Source: Tsukamurella tyrosinosolvens (GTDB taxonomy: Bacteria > Actinomycetota > Actinomycetes > Mycobacteriales > Mycobacteriaceae). Taken from it: DNA of 64,000 bases. Under the pieces are notes generated by a model. It had not been told where the DNA came from. It did not search any database and saw only the letters and a program-made list of their open reading frames with translations. The stretch's first letter is position 1; every line of letters begins with the position of its first letter. Shown in pieces: positions 5,200 to 27,383 of the stretch. Position numbers and translations under genes: made by a program. The DNA is taken from the NCBI RefSeq assembly GCF_900104775.1, contig NZ_FNSA01000001.1:62001-126000 (forward strand), read 5' to 3'.

Positions 5200-7035
5200 A
5201 TGTGCGGAATCGTCGGATACATCGGTGGCCAGACGGCCGTGGACATCCTCGTCGACGGGCTCACCCAGCTCGAGTACCGCGGGTACGACTCGGCGGGCAT
5301 CGCCGTCCTCGGCCCGTCGGGCGCGAAGCGCGTCCGCAGCGTCGGCCGCGTGCGCGACCTGGAGGCCGCGCTGCCGAAGCGGCTCGCGGGCAAGACGGGC
5401 ATCGGCCACACGCGCTGGGCCACGCACGGCGCCCCGTCCGAGGCCAACGCGCACCCGCACACCTCAGCCCCCGACGCCGAGGGCCACGAGCGGATCTTCA
5501 TCGTGCACAACGGCATCATCGACAACGCCCGGGACCTGCGGCTCGAGCTCGAGGCCGACGGGGTGGAGCTCACCTCCGACACCGACACCGAGGCCGTGGC
5601 GCACCTCATCGCCCGCAGCGGCGCCGAGACCCTCGAGGACGCCGTGCGCCAGACGCTGCACCGGCTCAGCGGCACCTACGCCCTGGCCGTCATCGACACC
5701 GAGCACCCCGACCGGATCGTCGTGGCCCGCAACGGCTCCCCGCTCATCATCGGCGTCGGGGACAAGGAGATGTTCGTCGCCTCGGACATCTCCGCCGTGG
5801 TGCGGCACACCAGCCAGGTCGTACACCTCGACGACGGCGAGTGCGCCACCGTCACCGCGTCCGGCTTCCGCATGTTCAGCGCCGACGACAATCGCGCCGT
5901 CGCGAAGTCCGCCACCACCGTGGACATCTCGCCCGACGATCTGGAGCTGGGCAACCACAGCCACTTCATGCTCAAGGAGATCGCGGAGCAGCCGAGCTCG
6001 CTCGAGCGCATGCTCTCCGGCCGGCTCGACGAGCGGTTCGCCACCGCCCGCCTCGACGGCCTGAACCTGGACGCGCAGGCCATGCGCCGGTTCAAGCGCG
6101 TCAAGATCCTCGGCTGCGGCAGCGCCTATTACATGGGCCAGCTGGGCGCCTCCGTCATCGAGGAGCTCGCCCGCATCCCCGCGGACGCCGAGCCCGCCAG
6201 CGAGTTCCGCTACCGCAACCCGATCGTGGAGCCCGACACCCTCTACGTCGCGGTGAGCCAGTCGGGCGAGACCGCCGACACCGCGTTCGCCGTGCAGGAG
6301 GTCAAGCGCAAGGGCGGCACCATCGTCGGCCTGGTCAACGTGGTCGGCTCGACCATCGCGCGCGAGGTCTCGGGCGGCATCTACCTGCACGCCGGCCCCG
6401 AGGTCTCCGTGGCCTCCACCAAGGCCAACACCCACATGGCGGTCGGTTTCGCGCTGCTCGCGCTCGCGCTGGGCCGGGTGCGTGACCTCTCGATCACCGA
6501 CGGGACGCGGATCGTCAAGGGTCTCAAGGCCCTGCCCGCCCAGATCGGCGAGATCATCGAGTCCCCCGGCGACGTCGAGGACGCGGCGAAGCTGCTGGCC
6601 GAGGCGCCCAGCCTGTTCTACATCGGCCGCGTGCGGGGCTACCCGACCGCCCGCGAGGGTGCGCAGAAGTTCAAGGAGATCAGCTACCGCCACGCCGAGG
6701 CGTACCAGGCCTCCGAGCTCAAGCACGGCCCGCTCGCGCTGATCAGCCCGGAGATGCCGACCGTGGCGATCGTCCCCGACGACGAGCTGCTGGACCGCAA
6801 CATCGGTGCGCTGCACGAGATCGCGGCCCGCGGCGGCGACATCGTGGCGATCACCAATCCGGGCGTCGAGCTGCCCGAGGCCAAGGTGACGCTCACGGTG
6901 CCGAAGAACGAGCCCGAGCTGGACCCGATCCTGCTGATGATCCCGACCCAGCTCCTCGCCTACTACGCGGCGCTGAGCCTGGGCCTCAACATCGACCGGC
7001 CCCGCAACCTGGCGAAGTCGGTCACCGTCGAGTAG
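5200..7035 (+). CDS. glmS: Glutamine-fructose-6-phosphate aminotransferase (isomerizing)
   Basis: A 611-residue enzyme that makes glucosamine-6-phosphate from fructose-6-phosphate and glutamine, the first step to UDP-GlcNAc for peptidoglycan and other cell-wall sugars. The start codon is fixed by the family: Cys2 of MCGIVGYIGG is the N-terminal nucleophile of the glutaminase (Ntn) domain, residues 1-240. Two SIS sugar-isomerase domains follow (GCGSAYYMG near 307, SQSGETADT near 353, EISYRHAEAYQASELKHGP near 490), and the C-terminus ends in the typical PRNLAKSVTVE. An AGGAG ribosome-binding site overlaps the upstream stop. Its stop codon abuts the convergent aldehyde dehydrogenase stop with no spacer. 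Confidence 0.97.
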   Translation: MCGIVGYIGGQTAVDILVDGLTQLEYRGYDSAGIAVLGPSGAKRVRSVGRVRDLEAALPKRLAGKTGIGHTRWATHGAPSEANAHPHTSAPDAEGHERIFIVHNGIIDNARDLRLELEADGVELTSDTDTEAVAHLIARSGAETLEDAVRQTLHRLSGTYALAVIDTEHPDRIVVARNGSPLIIGVGDKEMFVASDISAVVRHTSQVVHLDDGECATVTASGFRMFSADDNRAVAKSATTVDISPDDLELGNHSHFMLKEIAEQPSSLERMLSGRLDERFATARLDGLNLDAQAMRRFKRVKILGCGSAYYMGQLGASVIEELARIPADAEPASEFRYRNPIVEPDTLYVAVSQSGETADTAFAVQEVKRKGGTIVGLVNVVGSTIAREVSGGIYLHAGPEVSVASTKANTHMAVGFALLALALGRVRDLSITDGTRIVKGLKALPAQIGEIIESPGDVEDAAKLLAEAPSLFYIGRVRGYPTAREGAQKFKEISYRHAEAYQASELKHGPLALISPEMPTVAIVPDDELLDRNIGALHEIAARGGDIVAITNPGVELPEAKVTLTVPKNEPELDPILLMIPTQLLAYYAALSLGLNIDRPRNLAKSVTVE

Positions 7036-8415
7036 TCAGTCCCGCTTCGGCCCGACCCAGACCTGCTGGGCGTTGACGAACTCGTGGATGCCGGCGCGGC
7101 CCAGCTCGCGGCCGTAGCCGGACCGCTTGATGCCGCCGCTCGGCAGCCGCGGGTCCGTCTTGACGATGCCGTTGACGCTGACCTGCCCGGCCTCGAGCTC
7201 CCGCGCGATGGCCTCGCCGCGCGCCGCGTCGGTCCAGACGCTCGCGGCTAGGCCGTACGGGGTGGCGTTCGCGAGGTCGACGGCGTGGTCGGCGTCGACG
7301 GCCGTCATCACCGCAGCGACGGGGCCGAAGGTCTCCTCCGCGCACGCCGCCATCCCCGGGCGCACCCCGGTGAGCAGAGTGGGCGGATAGAAGAACCCCG
7401 GGCCGTCCGGCACCGTCCCGCCCAACAGGCACGTGGCGCCGGCGGTGACGGTCTCCGTGACCTGGCGATGCAGGTTGTCCCGCAGGTCTTCCCGTGCGAT
7501 CGGGCCGACCTGGGTGTCGTCCTGCCGGGGATCGCCCATCCGCAGGGCGGCGAGCCGGGCACGCAGGGCCTCGACGAGCTCGTCGTGCACGGACCGCTCG
7601 ACGATGATGCGCTTCGCCGCGATGCAGGACTGCCCGGCGTTGATGATCCGGGACAGGGCGAGCACCTCCGCGGCGGCCTCGATGTCGGCGTCCGCCAACA
7701 CGATCGACGGGTCCGAGCCGCCCAGTTCGAGCACAGCTGGTTTGATCTCCGACGCCGCCACGGACGCGACCGCGGCGCCCGCGCGGTCGGAGCCGGTGAA
7801 GGAGACGGCGCGGATCCGGCGGTCGCGGATCACTCCCGCCACGTCGGGCGTCGCCGCCGGGAGCGAGGCGAAGACCCCGTCGGGCGCCCCGACGGCGCGG
7901 AAGGCGCCGGCGATCGCGGCGGCGCACCCCGGGACGTGCGGATCGTGCTTCATGACCGCGGTGTTGCCCGCCATGAGCGCGGGCGCGCAGAACCGGAAGG
8001 CCAACCAGAAGGGCGCGTTCCACGGCAGCACGCCGAGCACCGGGCCGATCGGCAGGTACTGCACGTAACTGGAGGTGGCGTCGGATTCGACGGTCTCCGC
8101 GGCCAGGTACTGCTCGCCGTGGTCGGCGTAGTGTTCGGCTGCCCACGCCGCCTTGATCACCTCGCCCCGCGCCTCGGTGATGGGCTTGCCCATCTCCTCG
8201 GTCATCACGTAGGCGTAATCCTCGACGCCGCGGCGCAGTTCGGCCCCCACCGCGCGCAGCAGCTGCGCCCGCTCGGCGAAGCCCGCCCGCCGCCAGTCGT
8301 GGTACGCCGTCTCGGCGCGCTCGAGCGTCGTCTCGATCTCGACGGGGCCCGCGGCGGGCACCTCCCGCACGGGTTGCCCGGTCGACGGGTCGATCGCGGT
8401 CAGCATCGTGGTCAT
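7036..8415 (-). CDS. Aldehyde dehydrogenase, likely ectoine-catabolic (DoeC-like)
   Basis: A 459-residue NAD(P)-dependent aldehyde dehydrogenase. Visible are the coenzyme segment VSFTGSDRAG, the general-base region LELGGSDP, and the nucleophile Cys264 in INAGQSCIAAKR, which is the form seen in succinate-semialdehyde dehydrogenases. It is the last gene of a four-gene operon and overlaps the ectoine hydrolase stop by four bases (ATGA). In known ectoine pathways an aldehyde dehydrogenase oxidises L-aspartate-4-semialdehyde to aspartate after the transaminase step. That role is inferred from context; by sequence alone succinate semialdehyde is equally possible. Confidence 0.85.
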   Translation of the reverse strand: MTTMLTAIDPSTGQPVREVPAAGPVEIETTLERAETAYHDWRRAGFAERAQLLRAVGAELRRGVEDYAYVMTEEMGKPITEARGEVIKAAWAAEHYADHGEQYLAAETVESDATSSYVQYLPIGPVLGVLPWNAPFWLAFRFCAPALMAGNTAVMKHDPHVPGCAAAIAGAFRAVGAPDGVFASLPAATPDVAGVIRDRRIRAVSFTGSDRAGAAVASVAASEIKPAVLELGGSDPSIVLADADIEAAAEVLALSRIINAGQSCIAAKRIIVERSVHDELVEALRARLAALRMGDPRQDDTQVGPIAREDLRDNLHRQVTETVTAGATCLLGGTVPDGPGFFYPPTLLTGVRPGMAACAEETFGPVAAVMTAVDADHAVDLANATPYGLAASVWTDAARGEAIARELEAGQVSVNGIVKTDPRLPSGGIKRSGYGRELGRAGIHEFVNAQQVWVGPKRD

Positions 8416-9665
8416 GGCAGCACCTCCGCCTCATTCGTCTCCTGCTGTGGCCCGTCGCCGGCCGCGATGCCGTTCACCGCGGGGGCGGCCGGGGCGCCGG
8501 CCCCGTCGTGCACCGTGAAGTCCTCGTCGAGCGTGAAGAAGGACTCGCAGCCGTCGTCGGTGATCCGGATCGTGTCCGAGATACCGACGGTCTTGTCGCC
8601 GTCGACGCCCCACATCCACGGGATCACGTGGAAGGTCATGCCCGGCTCCAGCGCGGTGAAGTCGCCGGGGTTGAGGCTGAGGATGTAGCCCTCGTCCCAC
8701 GACGGCGGGAAGGCGATCCCGATCGAGTAGCCCGACCGGGTGACCAGGCGCGCGCCCACGGTGTTGTCGGAGATGATCCGCCGCACCAGGGAGTCGGCGT
8801 CCGAGACCGTCATCCCCGGCCGCATCAGCGATTTCAGCTCGGAGAGGGCCAGCTTCATGCGCTCCTGCGCCTCGTACATCGTGGGCGAGAGCTCGCCGTT
8901 GACAGCGGTGCGCATGAGGGCCGCGTGGTACCGGCGGTAGCAGCCGCCCACCTCCAGGAAGACGTGCTCGCCCGGCTCGATGGTGCGGCCCTCCCACGTC
9001 GCGTGGCCGATCATCGACCGCGGTCCCGAGGCGACGTACGGCATGACGGAGGGGAACTCGCCCCCGGCGCGGAACATCGCGGAACTGATCGCGGCCGCCA
9101 CGTCGTTCTCCGTGTTGCCGGGGACCGCCGCCTCGAGGCCCGCCGCCATGCCCGCCTCCGCGGCGCGGGCGGCCTTGCGCATCACAGCGATCTCGGCGTC
9201 GGACTTGGTGGCGCGGCCGGCCTCGACGATCCCGAAGCAGTCCATGAGCACGCCCTGCTGGAACGAGGTGTGCACGCGGTCCTGCTGGTAGGCGGGGAAG
9301 AAGTAGCTGTTGCGCTCGTAGCCGACGCGTTTCGTCCCGAGGCCGCCCTCCTTGAGGGTGAGCACCAGTTCCTGGATGGCGTCGCCGGTGTCGGGGTAGG
9401 GCCGAGTGCGTTCCACCCAGGTCCGCGCGATCACGTTGGACTCCTCCATCGCGCGGGTGATCATCACCGGCTCGTCGTCGAGCGGCACCACCAGCGCCTG
9501 GAAGAAGGAGTAGCCGGTGGTCTGGTAATCGGTGAGGTACATCAGGTTCTCGGGATCGGTGATCACCACGGCGTCGAGCCCGCGCTTGTCCATCCGCTCC
9601 CGGAGCTCCGTGAGCCGCCGCTCGTACTCCTCCGGCGGGAAGGTCATGTCGTCGCGCCGCTTCAT
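8412..9665 (-). CDS. doeA: Ectoine hydrolase (DoeA/EutD-like, M24 creatinase fold)
   Basis: A 417-residue protein with an N-terminal creatinase domain (ITDPENLMYLTDYQTTGYSF near residue 40) and a C-terminal pita-bread M24 domain. The segments LEVGGCYRRYH (Glu238) and GIAFPPSWDEGYILSLNPGD, followed by LEPGMTFHVIPWMW, match ectoine hydrolases much better than Xaa-Pro peptidases. The enzyme opens the ectoine ring to N-acetyl-2,4-diaminobutyrate. The frame runs upstream but the ATG overlapping the preceding stop (ATGA) is the evident start. It overlaps genes on both sides by four bases. A proline- and alanine-rich tail of about 30 residues is extra. Exact isomer preference is not readable. Confidence 0.82.
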   Translation of the reverse strand: MKRRDDMTFPPEEYERRLTELRERMDKRGLDAVVITDPENLMYLTDYQTTGYSFFQALVVPLDDEPVMITRAMEESNVIARTWVERTRPYPDTGDAIQELVLTLKEGGLGTKRVGYERNSYFFPAYQQDRVHTSFQQGVLMDCFGIVEAGRATKSDAEIAVMRKAARAAEAGMAAGLEAAVPGNTENDVAAAISSAMFRAGGEFPSVMPYVASGPRSMIGHATWEGRTIEPGEHVFLEVGGCYRRYHAALMRTAVNGELSPTMYEAQERMKLALSELKSLMRPGMTVSDADSLVRRIISDNTVGARLVTRSGYSIGIAFPPSWDEGYILSLNPGDFTALEPGMTFHVIPWMWGVDGDKTVGISDTIRITDDGCESFFTLDEDFTVHDGAGAPAAPAVNGIAAGDGPQQETNEAEVLP

Positions 9666-10915
9666 CGCGCCACCTCCGTCACGGCCCGCTCGAGGATGTC
9701 CAGGCCCGCGACGAGGTCCTCGTCGGGGATCGTCAGCGGCGGGATGAGTTTCAGCACGCGGCCGCCGCTGCCGCAGGGCCCGATGAGGAGACCGGCGTCG
9801 AAACACGCGGTCTGCACGGCCTTGGCGAAGGCACCGTCGCCGGTGTCCAGGGCCTGCATCATGCCCTTGCCGCGCACCTCCCAGTCGCGGTCGGGGTGCG
9901 CCGCGGCGAGCGCGGCGAGCCGCTCGCGCATGGCCTCGCCCTTCGCGGCGACGGCCGTCATCAACTCGTCGTCGGCGAAGTAGTCCAGGGCGACGGTGCC
10001 GGCCACCATCGACAGGCCCTGGCCGCGGAAGGTGCCGGTGTGCGCGCCGGGCGACCAGTGCGCGTCGACGGCGGGCTTGTTGAGGTTCATGGCGATCGGC
10101 GTGCCGTAGCCGCCGAGGCCCTTGGCGAGGGTGATGACATCGGGGTCGAGGTCGTAGCCGTCGAAGCTGAAGTAGCTTCCGGTGCGCCCGCAGCCGGCCT
10201 GGATGTCGTCGATGATGAACAACGCCCCGGTCTCCCGGGCGAGATCCTGCACCGCGTGCAGCCAGTCGGCGCTCGCGACGTTGACGCCGCCCTCGGCCTG
10301 CACGGCCTCCACGAGGAAGGCGGCGGGCGGGGTGTGGCCGCTGGACGGGTCCGCCAGGGCGGCGGCGTAATCCGAGAGCGCGGTCTTCCCGCCGGGAGCG
10401 GTCTCGAAGGGCAGGCGCACCACGTCGCGCAGGGGCACGCCCGCCCACTGCCGGAAGGCGTGGTTGGCGGTGGCGGCGAGCGCCCCGAGCGTCATGCCGT
10501 GGAAGCCGTGGCTGAAGGCCACGACCTCGCGACGGCCGGTGGCGAGGCGGGCCAGCTTGAGGGCGGCCTCCACCGCGTTCGTGCCGGTCGGGCCGGTGAA
10601 CTGCATGCGATGGTCCATGCCGCGCGGCGCGAGGATCACGTCGTGGAAGCGGGTGAGGAAGTCGCGCTTGGTGGTGGTGTAGGTGTCGAGGCTGTGGGCC
10701 ACGCCGTCGGCCTCGAGGAAATCGATCATGGCGCGCTTCATGTTCGGGTTGTTGTGCCCGAAGTTGAGCACACCCGCGCCCGCGAAGAAGTCGATGTAGC
10801 TCTTCCCGGCCTCGTCCACCTGCCGTGCGTTGGACGCGGAGGCGAAGACGGTGGGGAAGTTCCTGCAGTACCCACGGACTTCCGATTCCCAGTTCTCGAA
10901 CGCAGCAGTGTCCAT
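9662..10915 (-). CDS. Diaminobutyrate-type aminotransferase (EctB/DoeD-like)
   Basis: A 417-residue class-III PLP aminotransferase. The N-terminus (FENWESEVRGYCRNFP, then FFAGAGVLNFGHNNP) and the block TGPTGTNAVEAALKLAR followed by FSHGFHGMTLGAL are those of EctB, the diaminobutyrate-2-oxoglutarate transaminase. The PLP lysine is Lys265 in TLAKGLGGYG, with the cofactor aspartate in IIDDIQAGCGR. In ectoine synthesis EctB makes diaminobutyrate. Here it lies between ectoine hydrolase and a deacetylase, so it most likely runs in reverse to aspartate semialdehyde, as DoeD does. Ribosome-binding site AAAGGAA; overlaps the next gene by four bases. Confidence 0.85.
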   Translation of the reverse strand: MDTAAFENWESEVRGYCRNFPTVFASASNARQVDEAGKSYIDFFAGAGVLNFGHNNPNMKRAMIDFLEADGVAHSLDTYTTTKRDFLTRFHDVILAPRGMDHRMQFTGPTGTNAVEAALKLARLATGRREVVAFSHGFHGMTLGALAATANHAFRQWAGVPLRDVVRLPFETAPGGKTALSDYAAALADPSSGHTPPAAFLVEAVQAEGGVNVASADWLHAVQDLARETGALFIIDDIQAGCGRTGSYFSFDGYDLDPDVITLAKGLGGYGTPIAMNLNKPAVDAHWSPGAHTGTFRGQGLSMVAGTVALDYFADDELMTAVAAKGEAMRERLAALAAAHPDRDWEVRGKGMMQALDTGDGAFAKAVQTACFDAGLLIGPCGSGGRVLKLIPPLTIPDEDLVAGLDILERAVTEVAR

Positions 10916-25244: not shown

Positions 25245-25362
25245 ACGGTCACAATAGCCGTCCCCGGAACCACGGAATTGGGATACTTGTCCCACGCCGT
25301 GCGCATCCGCCTCGGCGATCATGTAATCTCCCAGTATTCGCAATCTGGAAGGGAGGGCCTCA

Positions 25363-25764
25363 ATGACTACGTTCGCGGCCAAGCTGAACCGACTTTTCGA
25401 GGTCGTGCACCCCGCAGACCGGGGGCCCTACACCTCGTCGGAGTTCTGCAGGATGGTCGAGGAGAGCGGCGGCAAGCTGTCCGTTCCCTATCTGTCGCAG
25501 CTGCGGTCGGGCCGGAGCTCGCGCCCCGCGTACGACATGGTGGCTTCCATCGCTCAGACCTTCGGCGTCCGCGCCGAGTACTTCTCGGACCCGCTGTACG
25601 AGCGTGAGGTCCTGGGCGACCTCGAGCTGACGCGCGAGCTGCGCGAGTCGGGCATGCTCGAGATGGCTCGCCGCTCGACGAAGCTGTCGGCGGACCGTCG
25701 GGCAGCGCTCGCCGGTCTCCTCGCCGAGCTCGAGGCGGAGGACGGCAAGGAGGGCACGGCCTAG
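25363..25764 (+). CDS. EspR-like XRE-family DNA-binding protein
   Basis: A 133-residue protein with the size and layout of M. tuberculosis EspR: the opening TTFAAKLNRLFEVVHP, then GPYTSSEFCRMVEESGGKLSVPYLSQLRSG (helix-turn-helix, residues 20-52), a middle helix with AEYFSDPLY, and a C-terminal dimerisation helix region. EspR is an architectural regulator of virulence-related and lipid genes. Start ATG has GGGAGG upstream. It converges on the membrane protein gene at 25820, which is coupled to an ImmA/IrrE-like protease. Whether it is the orthologue or a local regulator of that pair is open. Confidence 0.82.
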   Translation: MTTFAAKLNRLFEVVHPADRGPYTSSEFCRMVEESGGKLSVPYLSQLRSGRSSRPAYDMVASIAQTFGVRAEYFSDPLYEREVLGDLELTRELRESGMLEMARRSTKLSADRRAALAGLLAELEAEDGKEGTA

Positions 25765-25778
25765 GCCGTGTTCCTCTC

Positions 25779-25793
25779 CGGGCCTCTGGCCCG
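25779..25793. terminator. Hairpin between convergent genes
   Basis: CGGGCC-TCT-GGCCCG forms a perfect 6-base stem with a 3-base loop in the 55-base gap between the EspR-like gene and the convergent membrane protein gene. It could serve both directions. No U-tract. Confidence 0.4.
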
Positions 25794-25819
25794 CAGGGCC
25801 GGCAGCGGCCCACCGGGGC

Positions 25820-26872
25820 TCAGCGCACCCGCTCCAACAGGGGCGACGGGGTGTGCTGGGCCCTTTTCGTGACTGCGGCCGTCCAGCGCGAGGTCCGCCA
25901 GCCCGACGGGGGCTCCAGGTCGACGGCGTGCACCGAACCGTAGGGCGCGTCGCGGTCGAGCCACCGGGCCACCGCCTCCGCGCGGTCCGTCGGCGAGGCG
26001 TCGGCGAGTCTCCCGTCGCCCGGACTGGCGAGCATCGCCCAGCCGTCGAGCACGACGACGGCGCGCGCCTCCGCCGTCTCCACCCAGCCGCCGCCCTGCC
26101 GGACGACGGCCTCGAGGTCGGGGAAGAGATCCTTGACCTGCTCGTACGCGGGCCGGAAGTGGAGCCACTCCCGCGAGGAGATCAGGATCGACGTGGCCCA
26201 CGACGCCATCAGCACGAGCGTCCAGCTGGCGAACGCGGCATCCAGCATGAACCGGTTCAACCGCAGCACCCACACACCCACTTGCAACTGCTGCAGCAGG
26301 ACGCCGCCCGCGATGACGTTCGCGACCGCGACGATCGCGAGCAGGACCCCGCCCAGCGCCAGGAGTCGCAGCTGCGCCCGGTGCACGCGGCTGCGCTTGG
26401 ACACCCGCCACGTCGACACCGCCACGACGAGGGCGGTGGCCCCGAGGCACGTGTAGACCAGCGCCGTCTCCACCGCCAGCCCGAAGTCGCCGCCGAAGCC
26501 GAATCCCGTCGGGTCGCCGGTGCGGCCGAGGACGGCCCCCGTCACGATGACCACGCCGACCAGGACGAGCGGCGGAGACCACACCATGAGCCTGGCCCGG
26601 CTGAGCCGCCCGTCGAGCGCGAAGGCGAACACGAGGGCCCCGTAGCAGGCCACGAGCAGCAGGACCCGCTCGACGGTCACGACCTCGTACTCCGACAGGC
26701 CCAGTCGCCCCAGCGCCTCGATGGACACCGGGGTATCGATCGTCACCATCAGCGCCAGCGCGACCGCGGTGAGGAGGGCACCGCCGGCCGGGGGGTTCCT
26801 ATTGGTCTGCCACCGGCTGAACCTCTCCAGCGCACCGAGCCAGAGGATCGGTGCGACGAGCGACGCGATCAT
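25820..26872 (-). CDS. Seven-helix membrane protein with soluble tail (DUF6545/MAB_1171c-like)
   Basis: A 350-residue protein. Seven hydrophobic helices fill residues 1-215, then a soluble domain of about 130 residues begins around LISSREWLHFRPAYEQVKDLFPDLEAVV. This arrangement matches the MAB_1171c family of putative transporters carrying DUF6545, found in actinobacteria next to XRE regulators and ImmA/IrrE-like proteases. Function is not known; the soluble tail suggests signalling rather than transport. Its ATG overlaps the protease stop by four bases (ATGA). The long upstream frame is not coding. Confidence 0.75.
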   Translation of the reverse strand: MIASLVAPILWLGALERFSRWQTNRNPPAGGALLTAVALALMVTIDTPVSIEALGRLGLSEYEVVTVERVLLLVACYGALVFAFALDGRLSRARLMVWSPPLVLVGVVIVTGAVLGRTGDPTGFGFGGDFGLAVETALVYTCLGATALVVAVSTWRVSKRSRVHRAQLRLLALGGVLLAIVAVANVIAGGVLLQQLQVGVWVLRLNRFMLDAAFASWTLVLMASWATSILISSREWLHFRPAYEQVKDLFPDLEAVVRQGGGWVETAEARAVVVLDGWAMLASPGDGRLADASPTDRAEAVARWLDRDAPYGSVHAVDLEPPSGWRTSRWTAAVTKRAQHTPSPLLERVR

Positions 26873-27294
26873 CCGAGCAGTTCGTCGACCACCGAGTCGA
26901 CGCGCGTGATCGTGTGGCCGGCCTTGACGCGGCGCACGAGCAGCGTGGCGAAGGACTCCGCCTCCTCCTCGCACCGCGCCGCCCTGCCGCTGTCGGGATC
27001 GGAGGAGCACCCCTGCTCGTGGCCGAGGACCAGGTGGCCCAGTTCGTGCGCGAGGGTCTGCTCGAACGTGGCGACACCGCTGGAGACCACGAGGAGGTCC
27101 CGCTCGTCGGAGTGCAGCCACATGCCGAAGACGCCGACCGGCAGCGTCATGCGCCGCACCTCGATGCGCCGGCCCAGATGATCGGCGTACGCGGCGACCA
27201 CTTCGGCGACGGTGCCGGGACCCGATCCGGCCCGCGGGGTGACCGCACGCACGACCGCGCGCACTGCGCGTGTCGGCCGGTCGGATCCCCTCAT
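26869..27294 (-). CDS. ImmA/IrrE-type metallopeptidase (M78)
   Basis: A 141-residue zinc protease-like protein. HELGH at residues 83-87 gives two histidine ligands and the catalytic glutamate; the third ligand is in the acidic helix CEEEAESFATLLVRR about 30 residues later. M78 enzymes such as ImmA cleave partner XRE repressors to release gene expression. It is translationally coupled to a membrane protein, and an EspR-like regulator lies opposite. The ATG at 27294 is preferred because TATCGT lies 7 bases upstream; a longer frame begins at 27345. CSSDPDSGRAARC between the motif blocks holds two cysteines. Confidence 0.82.
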   Translation of the reverse strand: MRGSDRPTRAVRAVVRAVTPRAGSGPGTVAEVVAAYADHLGRRIEVRRMTLPVGVFGMWLHSDERDLLVVSSGVATFEQTLAHELGHLVLGHEQGCSSDPDSGRAARCEEEAESFATLLVRRVKAGHTITRVDSVVDELLG

Positions 27295-27301
27295 GCCCGA
27301 A

Positions 27302-27307
27302 ACGATA
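27302..27307 (-). promoter_or_regulatory. -10 element for the ImmA/IrrE-like gene (leaderless)
   Basis: TATCGT on the minus strand, 7 bases before the ATG at 27294; it selects this start over the longer frame. It is divergent from the embC promoter across about 100 bases. Confidence 0.4.
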
Positions 27308-27383
27308 CGTCGGTTCGTCGGCTCGTTGTACACCAAGCCGCGCATCGAACCGGTTCGCCCGGATTCCGCCAGGTCGCGGCGTC

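Follow-up and report, generated by a model that had tools for sequence, protein, structure and literature searches.

The window, a stretch of 64,000 nucleotides from Tsukamurella tyrosinosolvens, has three adjacent genes which encode an EspR-like XRE regulator, an M78 (ImmA/IrrE) metalloprotease and a membrane protein. These proteins probably form a three-protein switch, in which the protease cuts the regulator in a C-terminal loop and is itself gated by the membrane protein. Across genomes the three genes travel together, the zinc motif of the protease is kept, and the regulator can persist after loss of the protease and membrane genes (the pair). The loop of the mycobacterial regulator is conserved only where the pair is present. 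The module is most likely a membrane-linked variant of the ImmR-ImmA, DdrO-IrrE and CapH-CapP kind of system. Its parts in the window are as follows:

25363 to 25764, plus strand: EspR-like XRE regulator of 133 amino acids (match to EspR in PDB, E about 3e-22; PADLOC capH, 1.2e-4)
25663 to 25689, plus strand: C-terminal loop of the XRE protein, residues 101-109 (M-A-R-R-S-T-K-L-S), proposed recognition or cleavage segment for the protease
25820 to 26872, minus strand: seven-helix membrane protein of 350 amino acids with a cytosolic tail, a remote MAB_1171c/DUF6545 relative and the proposed sensor or gate
26869 to 27294, minus strand: M78 (ImmA/IrrE) metalloprotease of 141 amino acids at the annotated T. 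tyrosinosolvens start (PF06114; PADLOC capP, 4.3e-7)
26869 to 26872, minus strand: ATGA, in which the protease stop and the membrane-protein start overlap (read from the sequence; same offset in 72 of 86 module loci)
27034 to 27048, minus strand: HELGH, zinc-binding motif of the protease (HExxH kept in 112 of 113 distinct family members)
25279 to 25294, no strand assigned: palindrome TGRGAY-N4-RTCYCA upstream of the XRE gene, candidate autoregulatory operator

The association of the three genes extends far beyond the genus, as the co-occurrence check suggested by an earlier reading of the letters alone (the sequence-only reading) had asked. Of 198 Mycobacterium genomes, 196 have EspR and 118 have the membrane protein. 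In 113 of these 118, the EspR gene adjoins the pair and converges on it, with a median gap of 65 bp. Among the other five, espR lies in the same stretch in G217 and G294, the locus of G285 ends at the contig edge, and G273 remains. In the mycobacterial espR locus L066, the pair lies between an Rv3850-like gene and espR and is convergent with espR; the espR flanks are genes which we take to be Rv3847-, Rv3848- and Rv3850-like. In G167 (L240 5242-7132), espR is interrupted by an insertion of about 1.4 kb, with open reading frames that presumably resemble a transposase, and the pair is intact. A scan of named genomes gave 23 loci, all with the pair, from Mycolicibacterium and Mycobacterium (novocastrense, tusciae, lehmannii, bacteremicum, wolinskyi and others) and from metagenome assemblies. 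EspR is convergent in 22 of them and one is cut by a contig end.

The association also holds across the class. The MAB_1171c model matched 50 of 246 genomes (34 scored above its cut-off) and 0 of the 14 controls. At 30 class-wide loci of this family (the best-scoring one per genome, one being a second copy in the window genome), an M78 gene lies within 1.5 kb in 29 and an XRE of the EspR-like family is present in 21; 20 of these 21 XRE genes run in the same direction as the protease. Starting from the protease, the membrane gene was found at 86 of 91 M78 loci, a set which contains two loci twice (L066/L092 and L085/L133), and both this gene and the ATGA offset were counted by script. At 18 XRE-homologue loci from other genera (L052-L069, 34-42% identity, three from one genome), the M78 and membrane genes are beside the XRE gene in 13, L066 among them, and not in 5. 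G041 has three EspR-like XRE paralogs (L059, L060, L061), none with the pair nearby. At L052, L054, L055, L057, L059 and L063, the XRE gene is beside genes that we take to resemble fadA5 and cyp125.

The module is also found on mobile elements. Mycobacterium phage Adler F1725 (L226 2959-6327; record 6125-9738) has an XRE gene, an M78 gene and a MAB_1171c member that scores above the cut-off at 110 bits; a cytochrome P450 gene comes next. Rhodococcus plasmid pUSK13_1 (L227 3501-6023) has M78, membrane-protein and PAP2-like genes convergent with an XRE gene. A Mycolicibacterium plasmid has an XRE of the EspR-like family with no protease annotated nearby. Overall, the XRE gene is consistently beside an M78 gene with an intact HExxH, which is the arrangement of XRE and M78 derepression pairs.

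Evidence for a link between the protease and the regulator comes from Mycobacterium genomes in which the pair is missing. At 21 mycobacterial loci the flanks are the same (the Rv3848-like gene is undetected in one) and the pair is missing between espR and the Rv3850-like gene. In a tree with EspR-like outgroups, the root of which is weakly supported, 20 of these 21 form one clade (support 100) and L184 is beside a pair-bearing genome (support 99). A larger tree free of EspR has 100 distinct loci, 65 of them pair-bearing; the 35 pair-less loci are a clade of 34 and L184 alone. For this tree 104 loci were given, 103 were labelled and 102 entered, and near-duplicates may remain; left out beforehand were L167, whose cut contig has no EspR, a locus with insufficient neighbor sequence and two duplicates. 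The simplest reading of these sequences is that the pair has been lost independently at least twice. The clade of 34 presumably consists of slow growers.

Cutting of EspR by the protease would predict a cut site that is under constraint in the presence of the protease and not otherwise. Among the 65 EspRs that have the pair, the sequence I-A-A-R-T-V-G-L-S at residues 109-117 (numbered as in L066, about seven higher than in M. tuberculosis EspR) is nearly invariant. Five residues were counted with and without the pair: A111 (65/65 and 0/35), R112 (65/65 and 26/35), T113 (64/65 and 5/35), V114 (62/65, the other three being I, and 12/35) and G115 (65/65 and 28/35). The loop is altered in all 35 pair-less sequences. 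Parsimony on the EspR-free tree gives 4 changes at residues 111-115 on pair-bearing branches (length 13.0) versus 42 on pair-less branches (length 6.4). The corresponding counts are 99 versus 35 in the DNA-binding domain (residues 10-87) and 114 versus 69 in the tail (residues 118-138). The difference between the loop and the DNA-binding domain is associated with a Fisher p of 2.5e-15 (3.4e-14 without stem branches, 1.1e-14 without L184), p-values which treat changes as independent with just two losses behind them. Residues 111-115 have the top score among all five-residue windows. The pair-less changes are many and scattered, with 14 at residue 111 and 13 at residue 114. L184 has four EspR changes, two of which (111 and 113) are at the same loop residues changed on the stem of the 34-member clade.

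Arg112 corresponds to Arg104 of the window XRE protein. When the XRE set is taken as a whole, 119 of the 125 distinct proteins that have a protease within 3.5 kb keep the loop Arg (the rest are 3 gaps, 2 His and 1 Glu), versus 29 of 39 without one; duplicate proteins were removed before this count and the HExxH count, and protease-less XRE loci with under 2.6 kb on either side were left out. The M. tuberculosis EspR chain, taken from the sequence of the structure match, has an altered loop. To our knowledge, M. tuberculosis has no protease and membrane pair beside espR. The EspR of pair-less mycobacteria is probably an orphaned substrate. The action of the protease on the XRE protein, which was part of the sequence-only reading, thus gains support from the evolution of the loop, and the capH and capP matches of the window proteins suggest a family precedent.

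Several observations weigh against this reading. The faster change without the pair extends beyond the loop, with 18 versus 46 changes at residues 98-108 and 17 versus 23 at residues 88-97 (pair-bearing versus pair-less); therefore, the relaxed surface is wider than the loop. With two independent losses and 34 of the 35 pair-less sequences in one clade, a change in what EspR does, specific to that clade, could look like relaxed constraint. In the Tsukamurella loop the conserved Arg is preceded by Arg instead of Ala. At one Tsukamurella locus (G014) the pair is reduced to remnants (L084 5121-5506), and the XRE gene is intact, its product being 95% identical to that of the window; the loop is unchanged though the pair has decayed. 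The distance from the XRE start to the emb start is 789 bp in G014 versus 1,971-2,107 bp in the other loci, and the loss seems recent, judged by the remnants. In a Rhodococcus-like set all 17 loci with the pair have Ser/Ala at the site, and so do 5 of the 12 that lack the pair; the count covers 30 loci, and L296, which belongs to another subtype, was dropped beforehand. Two of the five are in G078, which has the pair at another locus. A search of nine genomes for this protease subtype gave distant matches only in G041 and G050 (26-32%) and found none in G053, G071, G087 and G024. The EspR consensus shows no enrichment in front of the protease gene of mycobacteria, which makes the pair an unlikely EspR target. 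Finally, the low-confidence AlphaFold model of the membrane protein is poor, and the gating role of this protein is putative.

Control of the pair by EspR in Mycobacterium was considered and rejected on the basis of the same consensus counts. In the 23 scan loci there is 1 match in 6,895 bp upstream of the protease gene versus 1.6 expected. Upstream of espR there are 11 in 2,700 bp versus 0.9 expected (9 of the 23 loci, those with a start found by pattern).

The window XRE protein resembles EspR over its full length, including the C-terminal dimerization domain. With phmmer and the single protein as query, residues 2-127 match the M. tuberculosis EspR structures (PDB 3qf3/3r1f/4ndw) at the E value listed above. 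The family profile matches EspR at 5e-54, although this profile itself includes two mycobacterial EspRs. The protein has no Pfam or NCBIfam match at 1e-3, and its match to capH is weak. Identity to the mycobacterial EspR of L066 is 36%. The two genes are not at the same locus: the window has aroQ, XRE, the pair and emb, and espR lies among Rv3847-, Rv3848- and Rv3850-like genes. In a tree the window protein groups on the side of the convergent-type XRE proteins, with a weakly supported exact position. The sequence-only reading of an EspR-sized XRE protein converging on the pair is confirmed.

The palindrome upstream of the XRE gene is exact in 11 of 14 genus loci (by eye, window included) and has 1-2 mismatches in the other three; the pattern was derived from the same 14-locus alignment. 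Two exact sites occur in the 5.28 Mb genome and the reversed control has none. Since the palindrome is conserved in the genus and is exact at just two places in the genome, it suggests that the XRE protein may narrowly control its own promoter. With one mismatch allowed there are 2 matches in the window versus 1.1 expected; therefore, looser copies carry little meaning. The second exact copy (G000:C3:848354-848369; L183 4355-4370) is 65 bp before an open reading frame of 174 amino acids resembling an exported lipoprotein, a possible second target of the XRE protein.

The proposed mechanism is as follows. The XRE protein would be an EspR-type dimeric DNA-binding regulator, probably controlling its own promoter. 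EspR dimerizes via its C-terminal domain, and loss of ten C-terminal residues abolishes dimerization (PMC3315491). The M78 protease would cut the XRE protein in the short loop of this domain (window residues about 101-109, with the conserved Arg104). We infer the cut itself and its exact bond. The cut would destroy the dimer, and the action of the XRE protein on its regulon would be lifted or ended; EspR is reported to act both positively and negatively (PMC3315491). The membrane protein, translated with the protease, would hold or switch it via the cytosolic domain on a membrane or envelope signal. Because the membrane gene is coupled to the protease gene, the membrane protein is the natural candidate for a gate.

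The protease scores 24.6 bits against PF06114 (gathering 22), with a weak match to capP. In addition to the HExxH motif, a strict downstream E-x-A-x-F-A pattern is present in 92 of the 113 distinct family members. The membrane protein of the window has no Pfam DUF6545 match at 1e-3 and scores a weak 25.7 bits against NCBIfam NF042915 (MAB_1171c_fam), below the curated cut-off of 100. It aligns over its length with mycobacterial members at 20-23% identity. The AlphaFold model has seven long helices, the last continuing into a C-terminal domain, at low confidence (mean predicted local distance difference test score 60.8), and the loop charges are compatible with an outside N-terminus and an inside C-terminus. 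The layout is that of the MAB_1171c/DUF6545 family, with several transmembrane helices, a cytosolic C-terminal domain and a gene directly after M78. Of the original label of a seven-helix DUF6545 protein, the seven helices and a remote family relationship stand, and the Pfam assignment does not. A search of solved structures with the protease and membrane-protein profiles gave nothing meaningful. The window genome has a second module on another contig (G000:C3:159651-161754; L085 6595-8791) with the canonical order XRE, M78 and a MAB_1171c/DUF6545 member; this second membrane protein matches PF20182 (DUF6545) at 1.7e-21 and is over the MAB_1171c cut-off.

Small PAP2-like membrane genes occur near the membrane gene in 13 loci (L067, L070, L086, L090, L136, L141, L142, L143, L144, L149, L151, L152 and L155), on the other strand in L086. 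In L071 (5464-7125) a PAP2-like part is fused to the membrane protein, and in L087 the PAP2-like gene adjoins the XRE gene only. The Pfam PAP2 cut-off is passed by one of four separate copies scanned (L067). The window module is without such a gene. These genes hint at a lipid-phosphate signal in the PAP2-bearing branches.

It is possible, if unlikely, that the membrane protein is no sensor but the output of the same protease-XRE pair, namely a transporter or effector whose synthesis follows removal of the XRE protein. The NCBI label for the membrane family is 'putative transporter', and a Mycobacterium abscessus MAB_1171c mutant forms about 50% less biofilm, which its authors read as an effect of transport (PMC8707978). 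The extra cargo of some copies, namely the P450 gene beside the phage Adler trio and the PAP2-like genes, may also be taken in this sense. However, the transporter label, as presented in the relevant part of that paper, rests on annotation and not on a transport assay (PMC8707978). The membrane gene is coupled to the protease and not to the XRE gene, and in the convergent layout no EspR site is seen upstream of the pair.

A toxin-antitoxin-like or immunity element, in which the XRE protein would be the antitoxin or repressor and the toxic or released part would be the protease or membrane protein, is rather improbable. Makarova et al. 2009 (PMC2701414) put forward XRE plus COG2856 as a predicted toxin-antitoxin pair, and the module is present on a phage and a plasmid. 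However, the ImmR-ImmA pair did not behave as a toxin-antitoxin system in the tests reported in PMC10233336. The XRE gene is also the slowest-changing and most persistent part of the module, with within-genus identities of 94-99% versus 67-94% for the membrane protein, and it keeps its position across the genus. Queries with single proteins found the XRE protein in 74 of 151 genomes and the membrane protein in 14 (own included), all in the genus and one a fragment. The order of XRE, pair and emb is the same in 12 of the 13 other genus loci fetched, G014 being the thirteenth, which goes beyond a chance arrangement. Neither a close XRE nor the membrane gene was found in the genus members G006 and G007, and no XRE gene or pair was detected in G006 between TetR and emb. 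The persistence of the XRE gene without the pair is compatible with both the toxin-antitoxin view and its alternative. Two genus members, G011 and G013, have paralogous loci (L070 and L071) also with M78 and membrane genes.

It is very unlikely that the genes are neighbors by inheritance only and that the EspR loop changed in one mycobacterial clade through new architectural and ESX-1 roles: the single clade behind 34 of the 35 pair-less sequences, the faster change at residues 88-108 and the dimerization of EspR through this domain (PMC3315491) are in its favor, but the association turns up again in differing genomic surroundings and gene orders, the two loop residues changed in L184, an independent loss, are those changed on the stem, and the scattered changes fit lost constraint and not one new fixed state.

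The proposed switch can be compared with several known systems. The window XRE protein is like M. tuberculosis EspR, a nucleoid-associated regulator (PMC3315491), in length and two-domain layout, and its palindrome suggests self-control. It differs in standing beside a protease and a membrane protein, as does EspR in 113 of the 118 Mycobacterium genomes that have the membrane gene. IrrE/PprI-DdrO of Deinococcus is also an M78-type metalloprotease with an XRE repressor of similar size. The IrrE target is described as a loop of the DdrO C-terminal dimerization domain next to an Arg, comparable to the window loop, and the cut falls in a stretch strictly conserved among DdrO proteins (PMC4374696). 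IrrE is described with extra domains and a response to single-stranded DNA, whereas the window protease is a bare domain of 141 amino acids coupled to a membrane protein. DdrO matches the XRE family profile only in the helix-turn-helix. In ImmR-ImmA (ICEBs1/TnSmu1) and CapH-CapP (of the cyclic oligonucleotide-based antiphage signaling system, CBASS), an XRE gene is beside an M78 gene, also on mobile elements, as here. CapH is cleaved by CapP, which makes that system one of this kind (PMC10904395, PMC10233336). In these descriptions no membrane protein belongs to either pair, unlike the window module. The MAB_1171c family (NF042915; PF20182) shares the membrane protein with a C-terminal cytosolic domain and the nearby M78 gene (29 of 30 loci); the window protein is a remote relative, and the window XRE gene is convergent and not upstream.

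In the window the genes are in the order aroQ (minus strand), XRE (plus), membrane gene (minus), M78 (minus) and emb (plus, from 27396). The ATGA coupling of the pair was seen as proposed, and the protease gene is divergent from an emb gene which is the first of three in tandem. The longest frame of the protease is 26869-27345 (minus strand). The likely start is the ATG at 27294, since this agrees with the annotated T. tyrosinosolvens record (426 bp) and with the alignment to mycobacterial relatives. The window XRE protein is identical to that of T. tyrosinosolvens NCTC13231, where the gene order is the same; in that record the XRE and membrane genes are annotated as 'hypothetical protein' and the third as 'ImmA/IrrE family metallo-endopeptidase'.

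The sequence-only reading also proposed that the module senses the state of the envelope, as judged from its position against embC. This part is not supported. The emb neighborhood is specific to the genus, and other genera place the module elsewhere, e.g., between an Rv3850-like gene and espR; adjacency to emb was therefore rejected as evidence for envelope sensing. The regions upstream of the protease and emb genes gave no EspR-type or palindromic operator, and the XRE palindrome is likewise not found between these genes. The interpretation as a whole is thus partly supported, with the three-gene association and the link between the protease and the XRE protein standing and the envelope and embC part not.

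No open paper among the matches listed has EspR together with ImmA, IrrE, DdrO or ImmR. In the open papers searched, DUF6545 and PF20182 were found in none and MAB_1171c in one (PMC8707978). Tentatively, and with somewhat less confidence than for the window switch, EspR may by origin be the substrate of a membrane-gated M78 protease. One lineage (by inference the slow growers with M. tuberculosis) would have lost the protease and the gate and kept the regulator, and the loop would have drifted as EspR turned into a virulence regulator and constitutive nucleoid protein. The sensors of such switches across actinobacteria, their phages and plasmids would then be the MAB_1171c/DUF6545 proteins. 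This would give the large MAB_1171c/DUF6545 membrane family its first testable role, and would add a membrane-linked version to the M78-protease/XRE switches, whose inputs in the cited papers are DNA damage, redox or zinc, and a signaling peptide pathway. It would also offer an origin for the much-studied EspR, with a specific loop and protease.

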